This document shows, one piece after another, positions 8,733 to 64,000 of a stretch of 64,000 nt of DNA. Under the pieces are notes generated by a model. That model made no database searches. It worked only from the letters and a program-made list of their open reading frames with translations, and was not told where the DNA came from. This DNA comes from Planctomycetaceae bacterium. Lineage in GTDB: Bacteria; Planctomycetota; Planctomycetia; Planctomycetales; Planctomycetaceae. The stretch is taken from NCBI GenBank assembly GCA_014762625.1, contig JABURQ010000148.1, positions 1-64,000 of the forward strand, given 5' to 3'. Each line of letters opens with the position of its first letter. The first letter of the stretch is position 1. Made by a program: the position numbers and the translations under genes.

Positions 8733-9200
8733 TCATTCTTCTTCATGCTTTTCCGCGCCCTCAGGCATCTGAAATCCAAATGGTTTTTTCGGTGACTCTG
8801 GATCTTTCCGCGGCAGCTTCATCAGCAAGATGCTTATTTGATTCACATGTTGAATGAGTTCAACCGGTTCTCCCTCGACACTCGTGCCCTTGAAAGAAAT
8901 AAGTGAAGGATTCCAGTATCCGATATCTTCGAGGTGAAAAGAAACAGTCTGACCAAACGAAACTAGTCTTACTCCGACTTCGTGCGCCTCATCCAATTCT
9001 TGATCAAATTCAGCGATCCATTTTGTGAGACGTTGGTAGAAGGCTGACGCCGAATTTTCTCTGGCGTTTTTGATCAAGGGATTTTCGAGCGTGGCAGGGT
9101 CAGGCAATTTTAGATTTGGCTTCGGCATTTTTGACGCTGTTAATGAACGTAGATCGGGAAAATTGAACTTGTTCACTTCTATCCTCCAACTGTTGCGCAA
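8733..9200 (-). CDS. DUF6173-like protein, 155 aa
   Basis: The core reads FDQELDEAHEVGVRLVSFGQ, then FHLEDIGYWNPSLISFKG and VELIQHVNQISILLMKLPR. It matches my recollection of DUF6173 (aeLd.eheVgvrL..fG, ..igyhnP.lI.F.G, ..veLiQhv.QlnvLL), a family without a known role. The start is uncertain: no strong ribosome-binding site precedes 9200, and MPKPNLKLP (start at 9128) is an alternative. It is convergent with the SseB-like gene and lies between it and the tRNA-Leu terminator. Either host or element cargo is possible. Confidence 0.5.
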   Translation of the reverse strand: MRNSWRIEVNKFNFPDLRSLTASKMPKPNLKLPDPATLENPLIKNARENSASAFYQRLTKWIAEFDQELDEAHEVGVRLVSFGQTVSFHLEDIGYWNPSLISFKGTSVEGEPVELIQHVNQISILLMKLPRKDPESPKKPFGFQMPEGAEKHEEE

Positions 9201-9215
9201 CTGTTGCGCGGATGC

Positions 9216-9251
9216 AAAAAAGCGACTCCCCGGAATCTTCCGAGAAGTCGC
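9216..9251 (-). terminator. Rho-independent terminator downstream of tRNA-Leu
   Basis: Read on the minus strand, GCGACT (9251-9246) pairs with AGTCGC (9227-9222), with further pairs inside, and is followed by TTTTTT (9221-9216). It begins 23 bases after the tRNA 3' end and is best read as the tRNA terminator. Confidence 0.75.
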
Positions 9252-9273
9252 AACGTGTTACTGAGTAACACAA

Positions 9274-9355
9274 TGGGGCTGACAGGAATCGAACCTGCAC
9301 TCCCGAAGGAACGGGATCCTAAATCCCGCGCGTCTGCCAGTTCCGCCACAGCCCC
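9274..9355 (-). tRNA. tRNA-Leu (UAG anticodon)
   Basis: The acceptor arms GGGGCTG (9355-9349) and CAGCCCC pair, with discriminator A at 9274. The anticodon stem CGGGA/TCCCG encloses the loop TTTAGGA, giving anticodon UAG. A long variable arm (GTTCCTTCGGGAGT) and the T loop TTCGATT mark a class II leucine tRNA. CCA is not encoded. The 3' end faces the integrase-bearing element. This is the usual orientation when an element integrates into a tRNA 3' end and restores it, so this is a candidate attR. Confidence 0.95.
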
Positions 9356-9465
9356 GTGATCGGTCGGACAATTTTAAGGGGCCGCGGTTCGGTTTGCCAA
9401 CCCCAGAGACACTTCGAAAATCGCTTCGTCCAGATTTGTCGCGCGACAGTAAGCAGGGAAATGAG

Positions 9466-10905
9466 CTAACTCGCCTCCAGTTCGCGTTCCAGCGTCCCGA
9501 GTACGTCGGACAGCGACCATTCCCGCGACGAGATCGATAGCGGGCGGCTCTCCTCCAGCCAGCTTTCCACCGCTCGCTCCGCCGAGACGACCGTGCTGTG
9601 ACGGCGTCCGCCGAAGTGCTCTCCAATGGCACTGTAAGGAGATTGCGTCAATTTGCGAGAGAGAAACATCGCCAGCATCCGCGGGTGGCTGATCGCCTTT
9701 TTCCGCGACGGTGATTTCAATTCGTCTGGCTGCAAGCCGAAAAATCGACAGACGCAGCGTTCGATGTCAGAGAGGTGAATCAAACGACGGCAGTCCCGCT
9801 CCAGATCGGCAAGGACCTGCCGGGCTCCGTTGAGGGTGAGCGGTTTTTTCGCCATCGATTCCGCATGCTGTAAACAGTTCAGCGCCCCCTCCAGTTCGCG
9901 GACCGATCGGGAAAACCGGGAGGCGACGTAGTCCTGAATCTCGGGGATCAGTCCCATGCCCAGGCGACGCGCTTTCGCTTTGACGATCTTCAGGCGCGTT
10001 TCCTGACCGGGGGTTTCCAGACGACACATCATGCCGGCGGAGAGGCGGGAGATTGTTTCCTCGCGAGACTTTTCCAACAGTCGCGGGTGACGATCCGACG
10101 TGAAGATCATCTGCTTGCCGGAGTCTTCCAGTTTTTTGATCGTGTGGAGAAATTCTTCCTGGAACACTTTTTTGCCGTCGAGAAATTCAATGTCGTCCAG
10201 GAGCAGCAGATCGGCGGAACGCATTTTGTGGCGAAAGGCGGGGAGCTTTCGTTCGGATAATGCCTGCGAGAAAAAGTTGGCGAACGTTTCAGCGGTCATG
10301 CGTAAGACGTTCAGTTGGGGGCTTCTCTTGCGCACGCTCCAATACACGCCATCCAGCAGATGCGTCTTGCCGGTTCCCACACCGCCGTAGATGACGAGTG
10401 GATTGTATTGTTGTCCGGGAACCTCGGAGACTCGGCAGGCGGCTGAAAAAGCGAGTTCGTTTTCCTCGCCGACGACAAACTCAGAGAGCAACCGTCGCGT
10501 TTGACCGGTGAGAGGGTCGCGATCCGTCTGGCTGCGAATCGGTTCCGCGGATTCTCTCTTTGCGGCAGCTTGGGCATTCTGTGCGAGAGCAATGGTCTGG
10601 GACGATTCCGAAGTCGCGGGGACGTCGTCTGCGGATTTGCGTCGCACTTGATATTCGACGCGGACCGCGGGGCCGCAGGTCTCTTTCAAAGCGTGTTGAA
10701 GCTGACGGCCAAACTGGCGTTGAATCCAGGTCATCTCGAACGGGCTGGAGACCGTCACGTGGAGCGACTCGCCGCGAAAACTCAAGTCGAGCTTCGTTCG
10801 AAACCACAACTCGTAATTCTGCGTGCCGACATGCTTTTTCAGCGCTTGTTTCAGGGCGGGAAGAGCGTCTTCGTGTTGGGGTGGTGTCATGGAACTGGGC
10901 TGCAT
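9466..10905 (-). CDS. dnaA: Chromosomal replication initiator DnaA, 479 aa
   Basis: The start at 10905 is set by GGAGGG seven bases upstream. The N-terminal domain I covers residues 1-85. After a linker, the AAA+ domain has Walker A GGVGTGKT (174-181) and Walker B LLLLDDIE (233-240). The C-terminal DNA-binding domain ends with the DnaA signature AIGEHFGGRRHSTVV, where the usual GxRDHSTV reads GGRRHSTV. DnaA binds DnaA boxes at oriC and loads the helicase. dnaN is not adjacent; the gene follows a GNAT gene. The 337-base leader holds one partial DnaA-box match at about 11010. Confidence 0.95.
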   Translation of the reverse strand: MQPSSMTPPQHEDALPALKQALKKHVGTQNYELWFRTKLDLSFRGESLHVTVSSPFEMTWIQRQFGRQLQHALKETCGPAVRVEYQVRRKSADDVPATSESSQTIALAQNAQAAAKRESAEPIRSQTDRDPLTGQTRRLLSEFVVGEENELAFSAACRVSEVPGQQYNPLVIYGGVGTGKTHLLDGVYWSVRKRSPQLNVLRMTAETFANFFSQALSERKLPAFRHKMRSADLLLLDDIEFLDGKKVFQEEFLHTIKKLEDSGKQMIFTSDRHPRLLEKSREETISRLSAGMMCRLETPGQETRLKIVKAKARRLGMGLIPEIQDYVASRFSRSVRELEGALNCLQHAESMAKKPLTLNGARQVLADLERDCRRLIHLSDIERCVCRFFGLQPDELKSPSRKKAISHPRMLAMFLSRKLTQSPYSAIGEHFGGRRHSTVVSAERAVESWLEESRPLSISSREWSLSDVLGTLERELEAS

Positions 10906-11242
10906 CTTGCGACCCTCCGAGCGCATACCATCTACGCCACGAGAGTGTTCGTGGTACGTAGTTCCTCCGTCGTCGGAAACCGAAAATTTCCGCGAACAGC
11001 GGTATGACACTTGTGGATGTACAGGGAATTTATAAGAGAAGAGGTGGGCATACCCCGAAGTGGGGAGTAGCGATCCTCCTGATCTCGTCACTCATTTCGT
11101 TCACTCGGGTTCCGATCCTACCGAGACAAACTTGAGAGTCAAACCAAAATCCGACCGATTTTTTCGAGTTCATTCACGGCGTTCAATTTCCACTCTCATT
11201 CCTCGAAAATTCACAACTTTTCAATTTTTGAAAAACCGAATT
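10906..11242 (-). promoter_or_regulatory. 337-base leader of dnaA, no gene
   Basis: The region is AT-rich in its upstream half (around 11130-11260), with several short TTTTC and GAAAA tracts. CTTGTGGATGT at 11009 matches a DnaA box on the opposite strand (ACATCCACA against TTATCCACA, 7 of 9). A single weak box is not enough to call an origin. The dnaA promoter presumably lies here. Confidence 0.4.
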
Positions 11243-12148
11243 TCATTTTCGCTCGTGTGTGTAATCTGTCGAAAACCCGCATTCACCACTGGTTTTCCAG
11301 AGTCGAAAACGATCGATCGCTTTCGCTCCGCACGATTGATAAATCCTGATGGCGGCGACATTTCGGGAATCGACGTCGAAGATCAGACGCTCTGCGTGAA
11401 GTGATTTCCCCGTGAGCAGAATGCTTTTCCAAAGTCTCTTCCCCCAACCCTGACGCCGAAATTCGGGAGCAATTCCCCAGTACTTCACTTCCATTTTCTT
11501 CACATTCGGCAAGTGACTCCAGACAGCGACTCCGACCGATCGCCCCTGCCGACGAAGCAGTCCGAACTGCACAGGATTTGGGGCGGCGGACGCGCGGTAA
11601 TCAGCCAGACGATCGGGCCAACTCAGTGCGGCTTCCAGCTCGGGACAATCCTCAGTCTTCCCACTGATCTCCGCCAGCGTCGCCAGGATTTCGGAGTTCT
11701 CCGTCGCCACCACTTCCCAATTTGATTCGTGAGCCTGAGCAAGGGAGGTTTCAAGCGGCAAGAGCGAGAGCTCGTAACGGAGCATCTCGGTCACAGGATT
11801 CCACTGCGATCGGGAGGCTGAGGTGGCGGGTTGCCAATCCGGGCTGGCGAGGAGGAGAGCTAAGGCCGAGTCTTGGGGCTCGCGATATCGAGTAAGCAGT
11901 TTTTCTTCCCCAAGGGGCGAGGAGGCGAGAGGTGGCGATGCGAGAAAGATGGTCGGTCCCACTCGACTGACGACCATCCCGGCAAATTCCTCGTCGGTCT
12001 CGGTCACCAGCAAATGATCCACAGCCGGAGAAGACTCAACGAGAGACCGGAAATCGACCGCGAGACGGGATGCTGTCGCCGGGTCGCAGGACTCCAGAAA
12101 CGCTTCCCGTGAAAGCTTGCGAACGGACACTCGGCCTACATCCGACAA
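11243..12148 (-). CDS. GNAT-family N-acetyltransferase, 301 aa
   Basis: The last third has the acetyl-CoA-binding signature: VKYWGIAPEFRRQGWGKRL, containing the R/Q-x-x-G-x-G/A loop, then RLIFDVDSRNVAAIRIYQSC with the typical N..A...Y...GF region. The first 180 residues look like a second, degenerate GNAT-like half, as in tandem-domain members. The substrate is unknown. The start codon overlaps the end of the FmdB-type gene by 13 bases, so the two are co-translated. It lies 337 bases upstream of dnaA. Confidence 0.8.
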   Translation of the reverse strand: MSDVGRVSVRKLSREAFLESCDPATASRLAVDFRSLVESSPAVDHLLVTETDEEFAGMVVSRVGPTIFLASPPLASSPLGEEKLLTRYREPQDSALALLLASPDWQPATSASRSQWNPVTEMLRYELSLLPLETSLAQAHESNWEVVATENSEILATLAEISGKTEDCPELEAALSWPDRLADYRASAAPNPVQFGLLRRQGRSVGVAVWSHLPNVKKMEVKYWGIAPEFRRQGWGKRLWKSILLTGKSLHAERLIFDVDSRNVAAIRIYQSCGAKAIDRFRLWKTSGECGFSTDYTHERK

Positions 12149-24094: not shown

Positions 24095-25630
24095 TCAGTT
24101 GGCGTGTGGAGCGGTTGGATGCTGACGAATCTCTTCCATCAGCGTCTTCAACTCTTCGGCAATTTCAGGATGCTCGCGAATCACGTTCACATCCTGAGTC
24201 GGGTCTTCTTTTAAATTGTAGAGCTGTGCTTTCGGAGCGTTCGGTTTGATCTTGCCGTCGGTGATGTCGCTATTGATCTGGCCGGTAAACTTCGTCGCAG
24301 CTGCTCCTCCAAATCCGTGATCGCCGACATTCTTCGCCATGAAGCCTCCGTTTCCGGCGGCGCTGATATAAATCCAGTCGCCCTTTCGGATCGCGAGATG
24401 CGTTCGTTTTTGCGGAGCGATGAGCAGATGATCGCGGACCTGCTGTTCGGGAGAGCCGGTCAGAACCGGCAACAGATTAAAACTGTCGGGTCCTTCGTCC
24501 GGTTTCAGTTCGTGTCCCACCACGGCAGCCACCGTCGCCAGTAAATCGACGTTGCTGATCAGCGCGTCCGACTTTGACCCTGCGGAGATTTTCCCCGGCC
24601 AGCGAGCTATGAACGGCACACGATGGCCGCCTTCCCAGGCGTCAAATTTGAAACCGAACAAATCGCCGTTCAAGCGGTGTCCGCGTCGCCACGCTTCCTG
24701 GCCGCCGCGATTCAACATCCCACCGTTATCGCTGGTGAAAATGACGAGCGTATTTTCATCGAGCCCGGTCTCTTTCAAAGTCTGCATCACTTCGCCCACA
24801 ATCCAGTCGAGCTCGTGAATGAAGTCGCCGTAGCGTCCCGCTTTACTGGTTCCCTGAAATCGGGGAGCCGGTGTAAACGGGTGATGAATGTTGGTCGTGG
24901 CGAGGTACAGAAAGAAGGGGGAGTCTTGGTGCTGATTGATCCAATCGACCGCTTTTTCAGTCAGCTTGGTGCCGACCTCTTCGTCGTCGTAGGCGGCGTG
25001 TGCCGCTTTCGCGCCGCCGATCTGCTCGATCCCGAATTTCTCGTCGAAGGCGCGAGTTTCGGCTTTCTGGTTGTAAACGAACGGATCATTTTTATCGAAA
25101 CCGACCGGACGATGATTTTCGATGTACACGAACGGCGGGTGACTGTTCACGACCGGAATGCCGAAGTAATAGTCAAATCCGAGTTCCAGAGGTCCGGGTT
25201 TCAGCGGATCGTTCCAGTTGACCGGTTGTTTCTGACCGAAGCCGAGATGCCATTTCCCGATGATGGCGGTCTCATAGCCTTCCGCTTTCGCCACGTCGGC
25301 AATGGTTGTGCGATCCGGTTCGACAACCAGCGGCACTCGTAGAAAAACCGGACTCCACAGGTTCCCGTGACGAACAGGATAGCGACCGGTAAGAAGTGCG
25401 TAGCGCGACGGAGTACAGACCGCTGATGCGGAGTGAGCATCGGTAAACGATCGTCCTTCCGCGGCAAGGCGATCGATGTTCGGTGTCTCGACGTGTGTCG
25501 CTCCGTAACAACTCAAGTCGCCGTAACCCAGATCGTCCGCGAAGATGACGACGATATTCGGTGGCTTCTCCGCAGCGCAGAGCAACGTTGGGAATAACAG
25601 AATCGCGAGGCAGAGACTGATTCGTTGCAT
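24095..25630 (-). CDS. Exported sulfatase, 511 aa
   Basis: The start at 25630 gives a clean Sec signal (MQRISLCLAILLFPTLLCAA). The active-site motif is Cys72-Thr-Pro-Ser-Arg (SAVCTPSRYALLTGR), in which Cys is converted to formylglycine. Asp32 and Asp33 (FADDLGYGD) bind calcium, and GKWHLG holds the conserved Lys-His pair. It removes sulfate esters, most likely from polysaccharides or glycosaminoglycan-like substrates outside the cytoplasm. GGAAACC precedes the ATG. It lies between the DUF1549/1553 and PSCyt1-WD40 genes in a co-directional block typical of planctomycetes. Confidence 0.94.
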   Translation of the reverse strand: MQRISLCLAILLFPTLLCAAEKPPNIVVIFADDLGYGDLSCYGATHVETPNIDRLAAEGRSFTDAHSASAVCTPSRYALLTGRYPVRHGNLWSPVFLRVPLVVEPDRTTIADVAKAEGYETAIIGKWHLGFGQKQPVNWNDPLKPGPLELGFDYYFGIPVVNSHPPFVYIENHRPVGFDKNDPFVYNQKAETRAFDEKFGIEQIGGAKAAHAAYDDEEVGTKLTEKAVDWINQHQDSPFFLYLATTNIHHPFTPAPRFQGTSKAGRYGDFIHELDWIVGEVMQTLKETGLDENTLVIFTSDNGGMLNRGGQEAWRRGHRLNGDLFGFKFDAWEGGHRVPFIARWPGKISAGSKSDALISNVDLLATVAAVVGHELKPDEGPDSFNLLPVLTGSPEQQVRDHLLIAPQKRTHLAIRKGDWIYISAAGNGGFMAKNVGDHGFGGAAATKFTGQINSDITDGKIKPNAPKAQLYNLKEDPTQDVNVIREHPEIAEELKTLMEEIRQHPTAPHAN

Positions 25631-25707
25631 GATGGTTTCCGTTTGTGACGATAATGCTTCCAAGTACGCGGAGTTGAGTGAATCGGACGCGATGAATAAT
25701 TTTCAAA

Positions 25708-35402: not shown

Positions 35403-35541
35403 CGGGATTCTGTCCAGTTTTTTTAGCCCATGCGCCTCTAGGCAGTCAAACCCCCGACCGCCGACAATAAGACCGCGTAAAACCGAGACACTACGCTAGG
35501 TACATTCAGGACATCGATTTGCAAAGCGTTTCAGGAAGAAG

Positions 35542-35583
35542 TACACCCGAAGGGATTCGAACCCCTAACCCTCGGTTCCGAAG
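35542..35583 (-). other. Prophage attL: truncated 3' part of a tRNA-Arg gene
   Basis: On the minus strand the sequence fits a tRNA from the anticodon loop to the discriminator base: loop CTTCGGA (anticodon UCG, Arg), stem ACCGA, a five-base variable region, T-arm AGGGG-TTCGAAT-CCCTT, acceptor CGGGTGT and A at 35542. The 5' half is missing: the bases before the loop do not pair with the ACCGA stem strand, and no D-arm exists. This is what remains at one end when a phage integrates by crossover at the anticodon loop and restores the full tRNA at the other end. Host genes lie to the left and phage genes to the right. Confidence 0.75.
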
Positions 35584-54998: not shown

Positions 54999-56460
54999 CA
55001 TCGTCGTCAACCTGATCTCGAAAACGGATGGATTCGAGAAGGGAATGACTCGTGCCCAGAAAATGCTGAAGAGTTTTGTCGGAGGCATGAAGGGGTTGGG
55101 CGTCGCTGCGGCGACAACTTCTGCGGCTCTCGCATCGGCTGCTGCCGGTGGCTTCGCTTACATGACGAAATCCTCGTTCGAGTCTCTGGACGCAACGGCG
55201 AAGCTGGCTACTCAAATCGGCATCACTGGCCAGACTCTTAGGGAGTATCAGGCTGTCGCTGCAAAATCTGGCGTCGAGAATGAAGAATTCGCCGAGACGA
55301 TGAAAGAGATGAATATGCGGATCGGCGAGGCTTTCGCCGAGGGAGGCGGCTCCGCATTCGAGGCGTTCCAGCAACTCGGGTTGGATGCTGCTCAGCTTCA
55401 GGCGATGGGTCCGGACAAGGCTTTGCTGGCGATTGCGGATGCGATCAGTCAGGTCGATTCGTCGGCTCAGCAGTTGCAGCTTGCGGATAAGATGTTCGGG
55501 GATGCGGGTAAGGCTCTGTTACCGATGCTGCGGGAGGGTTCGGACGGAATCAACCGGATGCGGGAATCGTACGTCGAACTCGCAGGCACGATGTCTCCCG
55601 AAGATTTCAAGGCCATCGAAAACGCCAATGATTCAACAAGGGGCCTGTGGACTTCGATCAAATCGGTAGCCGATCAGTTCGCAGCTTACCTTGCTCCCGC
55701 AGTTCAGGCTGTGTCGGAAATGATGACGGAATGGCTGACTGATACCGTGAAGAATACGGGCGATGTGCGGCAGCAGTTCGGGACGGTCAGTGGTTTGGTG
55801 GGGCTCCTTGGCGACACGATTACTTCGGTCTATGGAGCGTGGAAGGGAGCCCAATCCATCGTAACTGCTGCTCTGTGGACGGCGATGCAGCCGCTGCGTG
55901 GAATCCTGAATGCTCTCGAAGGGATTGCTTCATTCGCGGGGATCGATCTTGATCTCGGGGCCTCGACTCTGAATGCGATTTCCGACGATCTGGCGAAGCT
56001 CTCGAACGAGCAGTGGGAAGCTGCGGGTGATGCTTTCCAGAGTACCTTCAGTGACGAACTGCGGAGTCGAACCGATCAAATCATTGCCGATAACAAGGCG
56101 GCTGCGGAGAAGGAACTCCAGAACCTCCAGAGGCTCGGGCTGAATCAGAACTTCGGCAGGATTCCTGCTACTGCTGACGAGGAAAAGCCAGTCAAGGTCA
56201 AGCTCGATCCCAAGGATTTGGAGGATGCTGATCTAAAGACGGCTCCTGACGAGAAGATCGTGCAAGCTATCGATGCTCGAAGCATGGAGGGTGTTCAGTT
56301 CTTGGCTCGGGCAACGATGCGAAACGTGAATGATCCCGAGAAACAAGCTGTTGAGAAGCTGGCACAAGTCGTCGAACAACAAAGAGAGACTAATAACGCT
56401 CTTAATGCGATTCGCAATAATTTCAACCGTAGACCCGTAAAGATCGGATTTGCAGGCTAA
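54985..56460 (+). CDS. Tape measure protein, 491 aa
   Basis: The N-terminal part is classic: NLISKTDGFEKGMTRAQKML, then a hydrophobic Ala-rich segment (AAATTSAALASAAAGGFAYM) and ATQIGITGQTLREYQAVAAK, the LG.s...L......a...G pattern of phage tape measures. Two further hydrophobic stretches lie around residues 235-330, and the C-terminus is helical and charged. At about 0.15 nm per residue this predicts a tail near 75 nm, short for a siphovirus. It ends one base into the next gene. Confidence 0.93.
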   Translation: MALNDIVVNLISKTDGFEKGMTRAQKMLKSFVGGMKGLGVAAATTSAALASAAAGGFAYMTKSSFESLDATAKLATQIGITGQTLREYQAVAAKSGVENEEFAETMKEMNMRIGEAFAEGGGSAFEAFQQLGLDAAQLQAMGPDKALLAIADAISQVDSSAQQLQLADKMFGDAGKALLPMLREGSDGINRMRESYVELAGTMSPEDFKAIENANDSTRGLWTSIKSVADQFAAYLAPAVQAVSEMMTEWLTDTVKNTGDVRQQFGTVSGLVGLLGDTITSVYGAWKGAQSIVTAALWTAMQPLRGILNALEGIASFAGIDLDLGASTLNAISDDLAKLSNEQWEAAGDAFQSTFSDELRSRTDQIIADNKAAAEKELQNLQRLGLNQNFGRIPATADEEKPVKVKLDPKDLEDADLKTAPDEKIVQAIDARSMEGVQFLARATMRNVNDPEKQAVEKLAQVVEQQRETNNALNAIRNNFNRRPVKIGFAG

Positions 56461-57467
56461 TGGCGAGAATTACAAGCTGGCGAGAAACTACAGACGATCA
56501 GAGCTACGGCGAGAATCAAGACCAAGTCGCCGAAGCCACCCGGTCATTCATCGCTCAAAGTGATGGACCAATGACCCCGCAACTGATCTATGCCTACACC
56601 GGTTGTCCAAAACCCTACTCGCAATACCCCAATGATCCTAACCTCGTGGCCACCTTCCCACGAGTAAAGACGACCAAGAATGGTCGGCTCCATCACATTA
56701 CTGTTCCCTACTCCTCATTGATTGTTGATGGGGAAGCGGACGAACGGCAACGCGACCCAAACCCGTTAAACCGTCCACCCAAGATCTCCTTCTCCGGAAC
56801 CTTCGAGCAAGTCCCATGTTTAGAGGACCGCGAGGGGAAACCAGTTGAGAATACCGCTGGTGATCCATTGCCCGGAGCGGTCATGTTTCAACCTGTTGGG
56901 AAGATCGTCGTGAAGCGGAATTTTCCCGAAATCCCGAGTTGGTTCAACGATTATGTGAATGCGGACAACAAGGGGCGGGTAGCGATCAATTCGGATGCGT
57001 TGAAGGTGGACGGCATCAGGTTCAAGGAAGAGACCCTGATGCTGGAGTCCTGGGATTTCGCTGATTACGAATTTGAGAATGGGGTGAAATACAGGCCCTC
57101 GACCTTCGTGATTGCGGCTAATACGAATACTTGGCATTTACCGCTTCTCAATGTCGGCTATCGGGAGAAGACTTTGGAAATGGAAAGGTCGAATCCCGAT
57201 GTTCCTGAGAGTATCCGTAATTTGCCGGGGATTAAATTCCCTCCGGGTCCGGGAGTACAACGGGTTATCATGCCGGACGGTTCGCCGACTGATGAGCCGG
57301 TCTTCCTCATCAAAGAGGGTAAATTCAAAGGGCGTGCTTACCGCAAGAATTTTACCACTCATCCTTTCGGACCGGTTGCGACTGGGGAAGACATTCCAGA
57401 GCGTGTCAAGAAGCCTTTGGAGTTCAAGATCTATCCTAAACTCCCCTATCGGAAGTTCTTGGTGTAA
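56460..57467 (+). CDS. Hypothetical tail protein, 335 aa
   Basis: The ATG shares a base with the tape-measure stop (TAATGG). The protein has no recognised signature. It looks beta-rich with many aromatic residues (DGIRFKEETLMLESWDFADY and STFVIAANTNTWHLPLLNVG). Position after the tape measure suggests a distal tail or baseplate component. Codon use is C-ending for about the first 125 codons and then G/T-ending, as if two sources were joined. Confidence 0.65.
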   Translation: MARITSWRETTDDQSYGENQDQVAEATRSFIAQSDGPMTPQLIYAYTGCPKPYSQYPNDPNLVATFPRVKTTKNGRLHHITVPYSSLIVDGEADERQRDPNPLNRPPKISFSGTFEQVPCLEDREGKPVENTAGDPLPGAVMFQPVGKIVVKRNFPEIPSWFNDYVNADNKGRVAINSDALKVDGIRFKEETLMLESWDFADYEFENGVKYRPSTFVIAANTNTWHLPLLNVGYREKTLEMERSNPDVPESIRNLPGIKFPPGPGVQRVIMPDGSPTDEPVFLIKEGKFKGRAYRKNFTTHPFGPVATGEDIPERVKKPLEFKIYPKLPYRKFLV

Positions 57468-57588: not shown

Positions 57589-60510
57589 ATGCCACTTAAT
57601 GAATGGCGTGGCGACGCAGTTCCACAAGCCCAAATTGTCAGCGTCTCGTTTGCGAATGCGGAAACTGGCGACATCTTCGGGATCGAGATCAACGGGAAAC
57701 AGATCCAAGTCGTCTCGAACGATGAGGACGAGGGGAATGTCGCCGATGCAATCGTCGAGGCTATCGACGAATCGACCATCCCGGAATTCGTGGAGTTGTC
57801 GGCTGTTGCTAGCGGCTCGTCAGTCATTCTGACTGCGAATACTCCAGGCTATCCGTTTGAGATTTCGGCCTTCACGATCAATTCGTCATCCGGTGCGAAG
57901 ATGAGCATCGAGGTTACGAGTGAAGGTGTGACCAAAGTCAACGAAGTGCAGGAGATCGATCTCGACGGGACTTACACCTCGACGGCTCCGGGTACTTTCA
58001 CTCTCGATCACCCGACTTTCACTGGTGGCCCTACTTCGGCCATCGATGCGGATGCAACTGCTGCGGAGTTGAAGGCGGAAATCGTGGCGACCTTCACCGA
58101 GGTGAGCAGTTCGGATTTGGATGTGACGGGTGGCGGCCTTGGCGGTCCTTGGTACATCACGTGGAAGGGTAGCTTCGCCGAGTCGGAGGTGGATGAATTC
58201 ACGGTGGATGGTTCGAGCCTGTCGCCGGATGAATTATCGGTCGTCGTTGATACGGTCCAGAATGGTTATGGCGGTGCGGATACGGTCTATCTGCTTACGA
58301 CGGCTCGCGGGGTCGATTATCAGACGGGAACTTACACGCTGACTGTGAACGGTGTGACGTCTTCGGATATCGCGTTCGATGCGACGCCTGCCCAGTTACA
58401 GTCGGCACTTGAGAGTATTGCGACTGTTGGTGCTGGGAATGTGGTCGTTGAGGGTTATGTCTCGACGAATACCAACACACCCGGTGCGGCGTATGCAATC
58501 CGCTTTACGGAGGATTTCGCTGGTGTTGATGTGACGATGACCGTCGATCCGCTTGGTTTAGCTATCAACGCTCTTCTCGAAAAGGTCGTTGAGGGTGGTG
58601 CGGAGAGCTGGTCAGAAATACAGGTACTGGATTATGGCGGCTACGGGAGTGAGGGTGGTGCTGCCGCTCGCTGGCGTCTCTCACAGGAGGGAACAACCAA
58701 CACCTATCAGGGATTCTCGCAACTCTACTATTGGGATGGAGTAAGTGAATTCAGCGGGCCTGGAATCAATTACGCTCAAGAGGCTTCTGCCTCCACGAAT
58801 GTCGAGGGATTTTGGTCCGCCGATCTGCAACAGCTTGAATTAGCTTACGGAGTTTATTTTAGCACCACGATTAACATCACCGGACGCCACTTTATCGCTG
58901 GCGACGGGATGATTTTGGTCTTTGAAGGGCCTAGCGTTGACGCTACTAACGTCAACAAGGCTCAAGTCTCTGCCGGTAGTATCGATCCCTCTAACCTTGC
59001 CCGAACTCCGCAAGTCTTCGACGTCCAAGACGGAGGGAGCGGAACTGGCTCCGAAATTCAAACTGTCTGGGTCCAAGGCTCGGGCAATACGTGGACGCTC
59101 TCTTTGGATGGTGAGACGACAGCTTCTATTGCTTACGGTGCGTCGGCTGCAACTGTCAAATCGGCTATCGAGACTGCCTTCACTGGCATCAATACGGTCA
59201 CCGTGACGGGAACAGGAACACTTGCTGATCCCTACGTCGTGACTTTCGACGATCCGGGAGCATCGAACATCAATGAGATGACGGGTGATGGTACGAACCT
59301 GACGGGTGGATCTGGTAACTGCTTTGAACTCGTGAGCCATGTGGTCGGTGCTAATGAAGTGCAGACTATCACCATCGAGCCCTCCGTCACTGGCGGTACT
59401 TTCAAGCTCTCCTTTGGTGGCTACCTGACAGGAGAAATTGCCTACGATGCGTCCGCTGCGGTGGTGGAGGCGGCTCTGGCTGCTCTCGAATCTATCGGAA
59501 CGCCGACCAGTCCGAATGTCTCGGTGACCGGTGCTGACGGTGGTCCGTGGACTGTCACATTCGATGGCGGATCCCTCGCCAAGAAGGATGTTGCCTTACT
59601 CGGGTTCGATGACTTCGGTCTCGAAGGGGGAGCGGGAACTCAGACTGCTACCGTTACGAGAACGACAGACAGTTTGGGTCCGAATCACCTCGACGATCCG
59701 CTGAACTGGTCGCAGGGTCGCGTTCCGGACTGGGGCGACGACATCGTCTTCGAGTCTGAGAACGTAAGTGCTCTCTACTATGGCGAGTGGGTCGCTGAAT
59801 TCACGGCAGAGGCGACGACTGGTGGGGCGGAATTCACGATCCCTTGGCATTCGTTCAACAATCGCAACCAGAAGGTGCGACTCTTCACGACTGACACACT
59901 GCCAACTGGTCTCTCTACCGGAACTGATTACTACGTCATCCCGGTGGATCAGGACACGATCAAGCTCTCGGAGACTGAGGATGGGGATGCTGTCGAGATT
60001 ACCGATACGGGAACTGGGACTCATACTATCGCGGTCCATATCAACTCGATCAAGACACACAACCGCTACACAGGCGGAATCGGCTTGAGTGAGTGGAACG
60101 ATAACGAGTACAAGGAATACCGACCTCTCTACATGAAAGTCGGTTTGCTCTCCACTGGCGATAAGCAAGTGCTGGTGGGCGTCGGCGAGGGCTCGGGGCA
60201 ACCGAGGCTGAAGCTGGATATGTCCGATACTCAGGCGAATGTGAAGGTCTTATCGACTGGCGGCTCGCAGGAATCGGGTGTGCCGACGATGCTGCTCCTG
60301 AATAACAATAGCAGTACGAACATCGAGGTGATCGATGGGGATGTCGGCTGTGCGTTCCATGAGGGCGAGACTTCGACCTTCAACAAGCTCACGCTTCGCG
60401 GTGGTTCTATGCGTCTTGGTGACGCGACCTTCTCTGAAATCGACTGGACTGGTGGCGAGTTCTTCGCTAGCGAGGCAACGCTTAATGGTCCTGTGAATGT
60501 GAACGGGTAA
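57589..60510 (+). CDS. Large repeat-containing tail protein, 973 aa
   Basis: Four copies of a unit of about 85-95 residues can be seen, starting near residues 117, 243, 488 and 588. Each has strand GTFTLSFGG-like, then iAYDASAAVVEAALAAL-like helix, then VSVTG...WTVTFDG and a final loop. A Thr/Gly-rich domain near 745-815 (VRLFTTDTLPTGLSTGTDYY) matches the insert in the connector protein. The C-terminal 150 residues look like a beta-helix (NNNSSTNIEVIDGDVGC). It is probably a tail spike, fibre or tube-wall protein. GAGAGAGG precedes the ATG inside a hairpin. Confidence 0.75.
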   Translation: MPLNEWRGDAVPQAQIVSVSFANAETGDIFGIEINGKQIQVVSNDEDEGNVADAIVEAIDESTIPEFVELSAVASGSSVILTANTPGYPFEISAFTINSSSGAKMSIEVTSEGVTKVNEVQEIDLDGTYTSTAPGTFTLDHPTFTGGPTSAIDADATAAELKAEIVATFTEVSSSDLDVTGGGLGGPWYITWKGSFAESEVDEFTVDGSSLSPDELSVVVDTVQNGYGGADTVYLLTTARGVDYQTGTYTLTVNGVTSSDIAFDATPAQLQSALESIATVGAGNVVVEGYVSTNTNTPGAAYAIRFTEDFAGVDVTMTVDPLGLAINALLEKVVEGGAESWSEIQVLDYGGYGSEGGAAARWRLSQEGTTNTYQGFSQLYYWDGVSEFSGPGINYAQEASASTNVEGFWSADLQQLELAYGVYFSTTINITGRHFIAGDGMILVFEGPSVDATNVNKAQVSAGSIDPSNLARTPQVFDVQDGGSGTGSEIQTVWVQGSGNTWTLSLDGETTASIAYGASAATVKSAIETAFTGINTVTVTGTGTLADPYVVTFDDPGASNINEMTGDGTNLTGGSGNCFELVSHVVGANEVQTITIEPSVTGGTFKLSFGGYLTGEIAYDASAAVVEAALAALESIGTPTSPNVSVTGADGGPWTVTFDGGSLAKKDVALLGFDDFGLEGGAGTQTATVTRTTDSLGPNHLDDPLNWSQGRVPDWGDDIVFESENVSALYYGEWVAEFTAEATTGGAEFTIPWHSFNNRNQKVRLFTTDTLPTGLSTGTDYYVIPVDQDTIKLSETEDGDAVEITDTGTGTHTIAVHINSIKTHNRYTGGIGLSEWNDNEYKEYRPLYMKVGLLSTGDKQVLVGVGEGSGQPRLKLDMSDTQANVKVLSTGGSQESGVPTMLLLNNNSSTNIEVIDGDVGCAFHEGETSTFNKLTLRGGSMRLGDATFSEIDWTGGEFFASEATLNGPVNVNG

Positions 60511-61247
60511 TGACTGAAAGAGCAGATTTTAGTGTTGATGACGCGAAGCGGATTGCGAATGTAGTCCAGCGTGTGGAGGGTCAACGTCCGGGTCGCAAGC
60601 CTAATCCTACTCGCAAGGATTTGCTGAATTCGCCTATCGTTCCGGTGATGCTCCTCGAAGACCTGAAGAATGGCTACATCGGGAAAGCGGCTGTCCTTAA
60701 GCCCGACCTGAATCGAACGCACCAACTGATTCGATGTAATGGCGAGGTTAAGCAGAATTTCACGTTCAATCTCGAATGGGGCGATGGAGAGGCGAAGTTC
60801 ATTTCCATGAGTGCCACGCCTGCGGAACTTGAGGCTGCGTTGCAGAGTCTTCCCGGAATTACCAATCGAGATGTGGAGGTTGATTTCGGGAATCACACGC
60901 GAGGTGTGAGTCGGGAGATCGTCAGCGATGATGAGACCGAAGTTTATGAATCATTCGCTTACAACACTTATTGTTGGATCGTGACTTTCACTGGTCGTTA
61001 CGAGAATGCCGACCATCAAGAACTGATGGAGCCCTCGGTCGCGAATGGGAACGGATTTTCTTACATGTCTTCGCAGCGGATCAATTTCCGAGATTCGGGC
61101 CAGACCATCGATATCACGAGTATCCCGGTGGGGCAGACGACGACTGGTGACACGATTTTGAAGCGTGGAGCCATTGGGACGGCTGGCTACATCGAGGGCT
61201 ACGGTTACATCTTATTGAATCTCGAAGTCAGGATTTTGGACTACTAA
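60510..61247 (+). CDS. Tail protein with one copy of the repeat unit, 245 aa
   Basis: The ATG shares a base with the previous stop. Residues 79-170 contain NFTFNLEWGDGEAKFISMSA, then TPAELEAALQSLPGI, then VEVDFGN and CWIVTFTGRY. This is the same unit repeated four times in the preceding protein. The first 45 residues are basic and helical. It is probably another tail-tip or fibre component assembled beside the larger protein. No enzymatic motif is visible. Confidence 0.65.
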   Translation: MTERADFSVDDAKRIANVVQRVEGQRPGRKPNPTRKDLLNSPIVPVMLLEDLKNGYIGKAAVLKPDLNRTHQLIRCNGEVKQNFTFNLEWGDGEAKFISMSATPAELEAALQSLPGITNRDVEVDFGNHTRGVSREIVSDDETEVYESFAYNTYCWIVTFTGRYENADHQELMEPSVANGNGFSYMSSQRINFRDSGQTIDITSIPVGQTTTGDTILKRGAIGTAGYIEGYGYILLNLEVRILDY

Positions 61248-61933
61248 TGGTATTACGCGAAGTTCTTCCAAGACGGACGAATCTGGGTGGGCTATGGATG
61301 TTCAACCCTCCGGAGCCGAACGGTCACACGACGAACCTTGAGGGAGTCGATAGGTTCAGTTTCAATACCTTTCCTGCTGGTGGGAATTACGCGATCCCTC
61401 CGGCGTTCAAGGTGAATTTCGCGGGTGAGGGTCGCGATCCGCTGAATAACCCGACTGAGGACATCGTCTTTTTCTGGGAGCAGTTGCTCGTCGGGGAGCA
61501 TGTGCTGGAGCTTCAGCAGAAGCCTTGGCAGATTCCGAGCTATATCAGGTCTGGTGGGCGGCTGGCTTATTATCGGACTAAGGCGACGATTCCGGGTTAC
61601 AGCACTCTTCCGTTGTGGACGCTGTTCTACGCTCCGTTTGGCCTGGAATTGGGGCCTTATCTGTATGGCGGTGTGAATCCGTTGCCGGGTTTCAGTATGC
61701 CTGCGAACTGGTACTTGATTAGCGAGTATGACGGCGATTACGCTTTGCAGATTTATTACAACGTCGGGAGTGCGGAGGATAAGAATAACCGCTCAACAGC
61801 GGAGTCTACTTTCGATGCGTTGGGCTCGAATAAGTTCCAGATTTTGTCGTGGTACTATTCTTCTCCGCAGAATGTGGCGGTGAGCGGTCTGGAGGAGAAC
61901 ATCGAGGTTGAGGTTCACGCTTATTGGCCGTGA
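61247..61933 (+). CDS. Hypothetical tail-tip protein, 228 aa
   Basis: It starts one base into the previous stop. The sequence is beta-rich with many Tyr and Trp residues (FFWEQLLVGEHVLELQQKPW, then PSYIRSGGRLAYYRTKATIP). This is common in receptor-binding or baseplate proteins, but no family is recognised. It is the last gene of the tail operon; two hairpins and a new promoter-like motif follow. Confidence 0.6.
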   Translation: MVLREVLPRRTNLGGLWMFNPPEPNGHTTNLEGVDRFSFNTFPAGGNYAIPPAFKVNFAGEGRDPLNNPTEDIVFFWEQLLVGEHVLELQQKPWQIPSYIRSGGRLAYYRTKATIPGYSTLPLWTLFYAPFGLELGPYLYGGVNPLPGFSMPANWYLISEYDGDYALQIYYNVGSAEDKNNRSTAESTFDALGSNKFQILSWYYSSPQNVAVSGLEENIEVEVHAYWP

Positions 61934-61941
61934 TAGAAAAA

Positions 61942-61971
61942 GAACCCGGTCGCCCCTCAGAGACCGGGTTC
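61942..61971. terminator. Hairpin at the end of the tail operon
   Basis: GAACCCGGTC (61942-61951) and GACCGGGTTC (61962-61971) are a perfect 10-bp inverted repeat. The T run is on the minus strand (TTTTTC), so as a Rho-independent terminator it would work best on minus-strand transcripts; on the plus strand it follows the tail-operon stop. Confidence 0.55.
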
Positions 61972-61974
61972 GAT

Positions 61975-62019
61975 GGAAGCTTGAGATGGCGGTGGAGATG
62001 GTGACCGTGGGAAGCTTCC
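61975..62019 (+). other. Second inverted repeat before the glycosyltransferase gene
   Basis: GGAAGCTT (61975-61982) and AAGCTTCC (62012-62019) are perfect inverted repeats 29 bases apart. They lie between the tail-operon hairpin and the motif at 62074. No gene lies in this 169-base gap. Confidence 0.5.
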
Positions 62020-62073
62020 GCATTTAGATTACCGACAGATCCATTACTGAACAAGTAATTTCTGAAAATCGGG

Positions 62074-62084
62074 CAAAGATAGGG
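62074..62084 (+). promoter_or_regulatory. CAAARATARRG motif, copy 10 (CAAAGATAGGG)
   Basis: It is preceded by ATCGGG exactly as at 39861. It lies 18 bases before the ATG of the glycosyltransferase gene, with AAAGGAGCGGA in between. Confidence 0.5.
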
Positions 62085-62102
62085 TCGAAAGGAGCGGACC
62101 CC

Positions 62103-63410
62103 ATGAAGAACGAGGGCGTGATCAAGAAGCGGCTGCGAGTTTGCAGCAAGTGCGATATTCAGAAGTTCGGACGCTGTGAGTCCAACAATAAACTGGTCGC
62201 GGACTTCGCGACCTACGCTAACCGCTGCCCGGAGTACCGCTGGCCCGGAGACCCGGAGAGGCCCGAGCCGCAGAAGAAGCCGGAACCCCCTCCCGAGGAC
62301 ACGGAAGGCACTCTCCGCACTCCTCACGTTCCGACGAAGCCAGAGCCCCGCAGAGAAGACGAGGCCAAGGAAGAGGCAAAGGAAAGGCTCCCAGAGATTA
62401 TCCGACGCTACGGCCTGAACACCGAGCAGGCGGAACAGACGAAGGAGGAACTCGAACTGATCAATCAGCCGATCCCTCGCGACCTGCTGAAGGAAGCCGA
62501 GCCTGCCGACATCGGACGGATAGCCATCCTCACCAGTTACTTCAACCCCGAGGGCTACAGACGGATCAGGGAGAACTACCTCCGATTCCGCGAAGAAATG
62601 GCTCGCTACGATGTGGACCTCTTTATCGTCGAGTTGGCCTTCGATCACGATCCCTTCGAGATCGAGGATTCCGAGCTTCAGATCCGAGGCAAGCGAAAGG
62701 AACACAAGCTCTGGCAGAAGGAGCAACTGCTCAACCTCCTCATCGATAAAGTGCCTGAAGACTATGACGCTATCGGCTGGTTCGATTGCGACATACTCTT
62801 CCAGAATCGCGACTGGACCGATGGAGTCCGGGATACTCTCAGCAGATACACTTGGTGCCAACCCTACGCAGGCTCGTGGTTCACGGAGACGGACGGGAGT
62901 CTGACTAACTTAAAGCATTCAATGGGTTGGTTCCTGCATCATGACCCGGAGAACTTCCTGCATTTCGGCAAGGCTCATCCGGGCTTCGCTTGGGTGGGGA
63001 GGGCTGATTGGGTTCGGAAGAATAAGCTCTGTCCCACGAATGTGACGGGCGGTGGCGATGCTTTGATGGTGAAGGCGATCACGGAGCGTCTGCTTTTCAT
63101 CGAGCAGTGGATGAATCCTGAGTGGATTGATGATGTGGCGGTCTGGGCGTCGCAGGCCCGAGCTTCGGGTGGCCGTCATTTTGGTTATGTGCCGGGTGAT
63201 GTGATTCACCTCTATCACGGAACGCGATCTAAGCGGAAGTATCGGGAGCGGTGGTGTTATTTGACGGATCATGACTACAACCCTCGGACGGATATTGAGG
63301 TCGATCCGGAGACGCAGTTATTGCGGTGGTCGGAGGAGGCTTGGCGGTACAAGCCAGAGATGATTGCCCGAGTCTCGAATTACTTTGGGGAGCGTGAGGA
63401 GGACGACTGA
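62103..63410 (+). CDS. Phage-encoded glycosyltransferase-like protein with zinc cluster, 435 aa
   Basis: Residues 14-42 hold four cysteines (CSKC, then Cys25 and Cys42) that could bind zinc. A Pro/Glu/Lys-rich linker runs to about residue 120. The C-terminal domain begins IGRIAILTSYFNPEGYRRIR and carries a DxD-like motif (GWFDCDILFQN, about residues 225-235) and PGFAWVGRADWVR, as in GT-A fold transferases that use a nucleotide sugar and a metal. The target may be host envelope or virion glycan. Codon use changes sharply near 62905. It overlaps the sulfotransferase gene by one base. Confidence 0.7.
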   Translation: MKNEGVIKKRLRVCSKCDIQKFGRCESNNKLVADFATYANRCPEYRWPGDPERPEPQKKPEPPPEDTEGTLRTPHVPTKPEPRREDEAKEEAKERLPEIIRRYGLNTEQAEQTKEELELINQPIPRDLLKEAEPADIGRIAILTSYFNPEGYRRIRENYLRFREEMARYDVDLFIVELAFDHDPFEIEDSELQIRGKRKEHKLWQKEQLLNLLIDKVPEDYDAIGWFDCDILFQNRDWTDGVRDTLSRYTWCQPYAGSWFTETDGSLTNLKHSMGWFLHHDPENFLHFGKAHPGFAWVGRADWVRKNKLCPTNVTGGGDALMVKAITERLLFIEQWMNPEWIDDVAVWASQARASGGRHFGYVPGDVIHLYHGTRSKRKYRERWCYLTDHDYNPRTDIEVDPETQLLRWSEEAWRYKPEMIARVSNYFGEREEDD

Positions 63411-64000
63411 TGCAACCGATTTTCTATGTGGGTGGTCCGAAGACTGGGTCCTGTTCGTTCGCTGAAGCTTTCCGAAAGCTTGGTCTTCCAGTCATTAAAG
63501 ATTATTCGGTTGCTGATGAGATTCGGAAGTTCGCTTTGGATTCTCGCCAGCATCCGCAGGCTGTTGGTGGTATTGCTGATTTCGGTCTGCCTGTTCCGGT
63601 TCGTCAGTTAGTTGAGGTTTATCCGGAGGCGAAATTCGTTGCTTTTCGTCGTTCGATGGATTCTTGGATCGAGTCATATCAGACGCATGTGCTTTGGGCT
63701 CGTAAGACTGGGGATTCTACCAATGCTTTGCCAGGGCTGTCGGATTCTGAGTTGGAACGGCGTTATCAGGAATTGTCTGCGGATTTGGATTGGCTCCAAC
63801 AGAATCATCAAGAACGGGCTCTGATTTTGAGTTTGGAGGATGTCGCGTGGGAGCCGTTATGTGAATTTCTGGGCGTTGAGGTTCCGGAATCTGAGTTTCC
63901 ACATAGTCACCGCTCTGACTCGAAGCTCTGGCAGTGTCTCGGTTATGAGTTTACGACGGATTGGGTGAGTTGGAAGACGAATTCGTGGAGGAAGTTTTTC
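63410..64000 (+). CDS. Sulfotransferase-like protein, cut by the window edge
   Basis: The ATG at 63410 shares its A with the previous stop (TGATG). At least 197 residues are visible and the frame is open to the last base. The N-terminus FYVGGPKTGSCSFAEAFRKL is a PAPS-binding P-loop-like start (g.pKtGttsl..aL..lG). FVAFRRSMDSWIESYQ matches the 3'-phosphate loop (R..fS..y). The later LCEFLGVEVPESEFPHSH is the usual C-terminal motif. It would sulfate a glycan or lipid. Coupling to a glycosyltransferase suggests both modify the same target. Codons are strongly T/G-ending. Confidence 0.75.
   Translation, partial: MQPIFYVGGPKTGSCSFAEAFRKLGLPVIKDYSVADEIRKFALDSRQHPQAVGGIADFGLPVPVRQLVEVYPEAKFVAFRRSMDSWIESYQTHVLWARKTGDSTNALPGLSDSELERRYQELSADLDWLQQNHQERALILSLEDVAWEPLCEFLGVEVPESEFPHSHRSDSKLWQCLGYEFTTDWVSWKTNSWRKFF

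Follow-up and report, generated by a model that had tools for sequence, protein, structure and literature searches.

The window that we analyzed is a 64,000-nucleotide stretch of DNA, bases 1 to 64000 of a 72.6-kb contig (C30) from a 6.23-Mb genome of the Planctomycetaceae. Two direct copies of a 44-bp repeat, at 35540 and 71673, enclose about 36.2 kb of the contig (35540–71716). Between the two copies are structural genes (terminase, portal, prohead protease, capsid, connector, tail tube, tape measure, and tail genes) along with a D5-type primase/helicase, an AlpA-like regulator, and a tyrosine integrase. This element is apparently an intact siphoviral prophage from a temperate phage. The host genes that adjoin it belong to the planctomycete families PSCyt1/2, PSD1, and DUF1501. 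By eye, the repeat resembles the 3' half of a tRNA; ARAGORN did not find a complete tRNA at attB in the joined flanks. The sulfatase that the earlier note placed near 24095 is real (PF00884, 2e-64; 24095–25663), and it is a host gene that lies 10 kb outside the prophage.

Two genes on the forward strand lie directly downstream of the tail genes of this prophage, between them and the replication and integrase genes (Table 1). The stop codon of the first gene overlaps the start codon of the second (TGATG), so the two genes look translationally coupled. The earlier note, which was made from the window alone, had described just such a coupled pair, for sugar transfer and sulfate transfer, and had attributed it to a phage. 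Both genes do lie inside a prophage with structural genes, an integrase, and att repeats, and the predicted activities are consistent with that description, with one addition. Reading to the right of 64000, the second gene continues to 64528 as a fusion of a sulfotransferase to a methyltransferase, and it is followed by the replication and integrase genes and the second att copy. We also considered an artefact of the window's end or a random insertion; this was ruled out, as the contig runs 8.6 kb further with those genes and the repeat.

Table 1. Features of the prophage and of the transferase cassette. Coordinates are those of the window, except that coordinates beyond its end are given on contig C30.
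Feature	Coordinates	Strand	Basis
attL, 44-bp direct repeat	35540..35583	.	Repeat search
Tail protein, independent marker (alignment A7)	56460..57467	+	Present in 30/170 family genomes
Large tail protein, 973 aa, marker of the cassette-bearing tail module	57589..60510	+	PHROG tail matches; homologues upstream of the cassette in other prophages
Tail-module gene, 245 aa	60510..61247	+	Homologues in L089, L163, L190
Last tail-module gene before the cassette, 228 aa	61247..61933	+	Homologue in the equivalent place in L190
10-bp perfect hairpin (GAACCCGGTC...GACCGGGTTC), no T-run	61942..61971	+	Fold analysis, sequence
Predicted GT-A-fold glycosyltransferase, 435 aa, N-terminal Cys4 module	62103..63410	+	23-homologue alignment A1; AF2 and Foldseek
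Cys4 module, residues ~12–47 (CSKC...GRC...RCPEYRWPGD)	62136..62243	+	Profile and pattern searches
Predicted sulfotransferase domain (Sulfotransfer_4), fusion residues 1–~176	63410..63937	+	PF17784, E = 3.4e-22
Predicted SAM O-methyltransferase part, start	63938..64000, on to C30:64528 (L008:1938-2528)	+	PF13578, E = 2.8e-22
attR, second 44-bp copy	C30:71673-71716, beyond the window		Repeat search

The first gene's product did not match any Pfam or PHROG family, and a search of the PDB by sequence gave no match either. Nevertheless, it has the motifs of a glycosyltransferase: a DxD at residues 228–230 and WQKE at residues 204–207. All 23 aligned homologues have QKE, DxD (D228 and D230), and HG, and nearly all have the W, GG, D, and certain other residues. 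The AF2 model has a mean pLDDT of 81.5, with most of residues 130–435 above 85. When we compared this model to the PDB with Foldseek, it matched GT-A enzymes, including beta4GalT and chondroitin polymerase (E ~7e-7, TM-score to target of 0.4–0.5). It also matches a protein from Yasminevirus, a giant virus, in BFVD (E = 1.7e-25). The invariant motifs and the structural matches uphold the assignment as a glycosyltransferase. Going by the model, the protein is a predicted GT-A-type glycosyltransferase from a family of its own ("WQKE"), outside the curated sequence families.

Among 170 genomes from the host's family, 28 encode a member of this protein family; in one of the 28, the match is limited to the Cys region. 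A profile search also found it in at least 164 viral contigs, and it occurs in many bacterial phyla. Single-protein patterns did not identify close relatives of the exact cassette proteins in viral contigs; it was the profile search that found relatives. The one named phage with a relative is XaC1 (27%, E = 8e-23), and we found no sequence relatives in mycobacteriophages. Codon usage shifts inside the gene (62103–63407): near 62900, the fraction of C-ending codons drops from 0.47 to 0.19, as in a mosaic.

The cysteine cluster at the N-terminus, which had been remarked upon as unusual, is real and recurrent. What had been missed is that unrelated glycosyltransferases share it. We searched 19,097 ORFs with a profile of this Cys4 module, and the significant matches were solely at the N-termini of tail-end transferases. 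Matches outside the seed were at loci L168, L094/L018, L256, L434/L070, L432/L024, L435/L071, L433/L072, and L431/L012. Most of the loci matching the profile have a homologue of the 973-aa tail protein upstream; none was seen in the available stretch of L094, L292/L434, or L432. In a set of 2,878 ORFs with 250 amino acids or more, a plain pattern gave 16 matches, and 14 of the 16 are cassette transferases. Because the same module precedes unrelated catalytic domains in different phages, we suggest that it is a docking or targeting part. In the AF2 model, this region has a pLDDT below 50. Motifs of the form CxxC...GCxC...CPxxxW, in small proteins or at C-termini near phage or glycosyltransferase genes (L082, 12098–12391; L112, 2195–2641; L173, 155–835), look like the Cys4 module yet are distinct.

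The second gene had been described as a sulfotransferase. It does start with a Sulfotransfer_4 domain, but the complete protein (372 amino acids) goes on into a methyltransferase, which had been missed. The matches to both families are well above their cut-offs (79.8 bits against 22.8 for PF17784; 80 bits against 26.3 for PF13578, or Methyltransf_24, at fusion residues 209–320), and the sulfotransferase domain has no match in PHROG. The protein is thus predicted, from its sequence, to be a two-domain fusion of a PAPS-type sulfotransferase and a SAM-dependent O-methyltransferase.

The earlier note had raised the concern that the complete protein might lack PAPS-binding residues, but they are present. 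The 5'-PSB motif GGPKTG (residues 8–13) is at 63431, Asp57 is at about 63578, and the 3'-PB motif (Arg81...Ser89) is at 63644–63676. All of these are invariant or nearly so among 12 relatives. In the methyltransferase part, the SAM motif (ExGxxxG) is LEIGSYEGRS at fusion residue 209, and the Gly, Asp, and His positions are invariant in 7 sequences. Foldseek's best match for the model of the fusion is the O-methyltransferase MeT1 (E = 6e-9), and the best 50 matches are all methyltransferases. MeT1 acts on a sugar. The host genome encodes an APS kinase (E = 5.5e-70) as well as other sulfotransferases, so PAPS should be available.

We are not certain that the sulfotransferase is active, because a His that is nearly invariant in the 13 aligned relatives is replaced by Leu (column 122) and Thr14 is replaced by Ser. 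It could be a decayed or non-catalytic passenger, with just the glycosyltransferase and the methyltransferase acting. That would be the situation in L190, a viral contig that contains the closest relative of the cassette. L190 encodes a tape measure, four tail genes, a glycosyltransferase with the Cys4 module (56% identity), and a methyltransferase (52% identity), with no sulfotransferase. The domain's codon usage is also atypical (GC3 of 0.46, versus 0.65 and 0.61 in its neighbors), as might be expected of a passenger. However, its reading frame stays open, the match to PF17784 is strong, and the Lys-Thr-Gly, Asp57, Arg81, Trp86, and Ser89 are all retained, and we consider a non-functional domain to be improbable.

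How did the sulfotransferase come to be there? In L190, the stop codon of the glycosyltransferase overlaps the start codon of a methyltransferase that stands alone. In the window, the sulfotransferase occupies this junction exactly, in frame with the methyltransferase. Because L190 has the tail genes, the glycosyltransferase, and the stand-alone methyltransferase but no sulfotransferase, the domain was probably added at the junction. Its rarity also argues for a gain rather than a loss from an ancestor that had the sulfotransferase: we did not find a Sulfotransfer_4 domain near any of the 80 viral glycosyltransferase loci or the 80 viral methyltransferase loci that we examined. We found one other cluster that combines the three activities, in L112 (G431:C149, 2195–5499). 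There, a Cys-rich ORF (PHROG 13558), a GT2 protein, a Methyltransf_24 protein, and a Sulfotransfer_4 protein are encoded one after another; the contig is short, and its phage nature is unproven.

To examine the same genomic position in related prophages, we used the tail gene at 56460 as an independent marker. We counted the 15 loci where the marker is directly followed by a gene homologous to that of the 973-aa tail protein and where sequence further downstream is available. In the Planctomycetaceae, 12 of these 15 loci have a gene for a glycosyltransferase and/or a methyltransferase within 9 kb downstream and on the same strand (L088, L155, L089, L157, L158, L160, L163, L164, L165, L168, L169, and L173), while the tested genes of L159, L166, and L170 include neither. 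This is a raw count: L088 and L155 are near-identical and from a single genome, and counting them once leaves 11 of 14 loci. These two loci (G024:C1, ~220843 and ~257012) have near-identical cassettes and tail modules about 36.2 kb apart, as for tandem prophages. The earlier note had suggested a search for the pair in other planctomycete phages: genes for sugar and/or methyl transfer are present at most of these loci, but the sulfotransferase is rare, with L112 as the one other cluster that has all three activities.

The catalytic domains found at the tail-end position are unrelated to each other: they include the window's GT-A family, GT2, GT2 with GT4, GT4, and a methyltransferase with GT8. 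The glycosyltransferase genes of related prophages are inside the operon of virion genes. In L190, L087, L163, and L169, the first 4 nucleotides of the glycosyltransferase gene are shared with the end of the last tail gene, which implies that it is a distal gene of the tail operon and is expressed late. Pairs or fusions of a glycosyltransferase with a methyltransferase recur as well (L077, L193, L228, L249, and L270); in L228, they are between the head-tail connector and the tail genes. L228 is a viral contig that also has, at 8998–11857, a tandem double-glycosyltransferase protein fused to a third domain, followed by a methyltransferase. Given the syntenic cassette in related prophages, the two genes are, judging from gene order, an integral cassette of the prophage and not the unrelated insertion that the earlier note had allowed for.

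In the window, a gap of 169 nucleotides (61933–62103) separates the cassette from the tail genes. It contains two strong hairpins, with a 10-bp perfect stem and a 9-bp stem (fold z = -3.1), and the first is not followed by a T-run. In relatives, the genes overlap at this point. The promoter-like motif that had been proposed for the pair was not confirmed: we found no sigma-70-like promoter on the forward strand in 60400–64000, and the gap has hairpins instead (planctomycete or phage promoters may differ from the consensus). A moron would have a promoter and a terminator of its own. Because of the hairpin, the cassette in this phage may be expressed separately from the tail genes.

What might the cassette do? 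Judging from the enzyme families, a soluble cytoplasmic acceptor would receive a sugar, a methyl group, and a sulfate group. Neither the glycosyltransferase nor the fusion has a membrane-like hydrophobic stretch, and none of the 37 ORFs of the prophage is a Gtr-type partner (a GtrA flippase, GtrB, or a membrane Gtr transferase). Together with the position in the late operon, this favors a virion protein as the acceptor. We give about an even chance to the cassette being a glycan-decoration system of a temperate siphophage, with a methylated and sulfated glycan that is most likely on virion proteins. A cytoplasmic GT-A glycosyltransferase would attach a sugar to the acceptor, which would most likely be a structural protein (of the tail or capsid) from the shared late operon. 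The fused enzyme would then O-methylate the sugar, using SAM, and sulfate it, using PAPS from the host. The Cys4 module, which phages would swap among unrelated glycosyltransferases, may dock the enzyme on a common acceptor.

The variability of the cassette among related phages counts against decoration of the virion, as it would also fit seroconversion of the cell surface. The main rival is lysogenic conversion, in which the cytoplasmic enzymes would add a methylated or sulfated sugar to a precursor of the LPS or envelope polysaccharide of the host and so block the adsorption of competing phages. The phage is temperate, the hairpin could permit separate expression, and clusters of glycosyltransferases and O-methyltransferases in jumbo phages have been interpreted as modifying the capsule or O-antigen (PMC7824862). 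On the other hand, the overlap with the last tail gene in relatives implies late expression, we saw no sigma-70-like promoter on the forward strand, and the prophage lacks proteins like GtrA or GtrB or a membrane glycosyltransferase, so we view lysogenic conversion as rather unlikely.

Another idea is that the product is a small molecule, made or altered by these enzymes, or that they hypermodify the phage's DNA. Phage glycosyltransferases that act on DNA are known, and the relatives of the methyltransferase in L190 and L112 match a PHROG that is named DNA methyltransferase. But none of the 37 ORFs of the prophage belongs to a nucleotide-modifying family, the Foldseek matches of the methyltransferase are O-methyltransferases for small molecules and sugars, and the cassette is at the tail end, so we judge this to be very unlikely. 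Returning to decoration of the virion, we tentatively speculate that glycosylation in planctomycete siphophages is built from interchangeable parts: a conserved Cys4 docking module, fused to the glycosyltransferase (GT-A, GT2, GT4, or GT8) that the phage has acquired, would aim that enzyme at a common acceptor on the tail or virion. In this phage, the new fusion would add sulfate and methyl groups.

Genes for decoration by glycosyltransferases and methyltransferases are already known from phages, and so are phage sulfotransferases. Mycobacteriophage Corndog, a precedent for decoration of the virion, encodes an O-methyltransferase and glycosyltransferases between its virion genes (PMC4351075). 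According to summaries in two papers, mycobacteriophages glycosylate their capsid and tail tube (PMC12619734, PMC12363180). Sulfotransfer_3 genes were reported in marine phages (S-SRM01 and OM43 phage contigs), and the authors consider their function unclear (PMC10580990). Among the open-licence papers searched, we found no report of sulfated virions, and no description of a fusion of a sulfotransferase to a methyltransferase, of a Cys4 module shared by unrelated glycosyltransferases, or of a conserved tail-end slot for them. If our interpretation is confirmed, then sulfation would be a further modification known from phage particles, or from changes that phages bring about in the envelope, and the transferases would be a series of exchangeable glycosyltransferases that have one targeting module in common. 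The question is testable because the sulfotransferase is fused to a methyltransferase beside a glycosyltransferase, the slot is syntenic in many prophages, and there is a relative without the sulfotransferase.

The cassette can be compared to five known systems. Corndog/Che8-type mycobacteriophages likewise have glycosyltransferases and an O-methyltransferase among their virion genes (PMC4351075; PMC12619734), but the cassette that we describe is from another host phylum, has the Cys4 module and a sulfotransferase fused to the methyltransferase, and is at the tail end. L190 (IMGVR_UViG_3300044676_005553) is alike in its tail gene order, its Cys4-containing glycosyltransferase, and its methyltransferase (52–56% identical), but its methyltransferase stands alone and it has no sulfotransferase. 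Sulfotransfer_4 (PF17784) enzymes have the 5'-PSB and 3'-PB motifs and Asp57 in common with the domain in the window, which at ~25% identity is shorter, lacks the nearly invariant His, and is fused to a methyltransferase. The Sulfotransfer_3 genes of marine phages (PMC10580990) are also sulfotransferases in tailed phages, but they belong to another Pfam family, and no such fusion is described there. Finally, L112, from a bacterium of the host's family, also clusters a Cys-rich ORF, a glycosyltransferase, Methyltransf_24, and Sulfotransfer_4, but as separate genes, with the methyltransferase before the sulfotransferase and a glycosyltransferase of the GT2 type.
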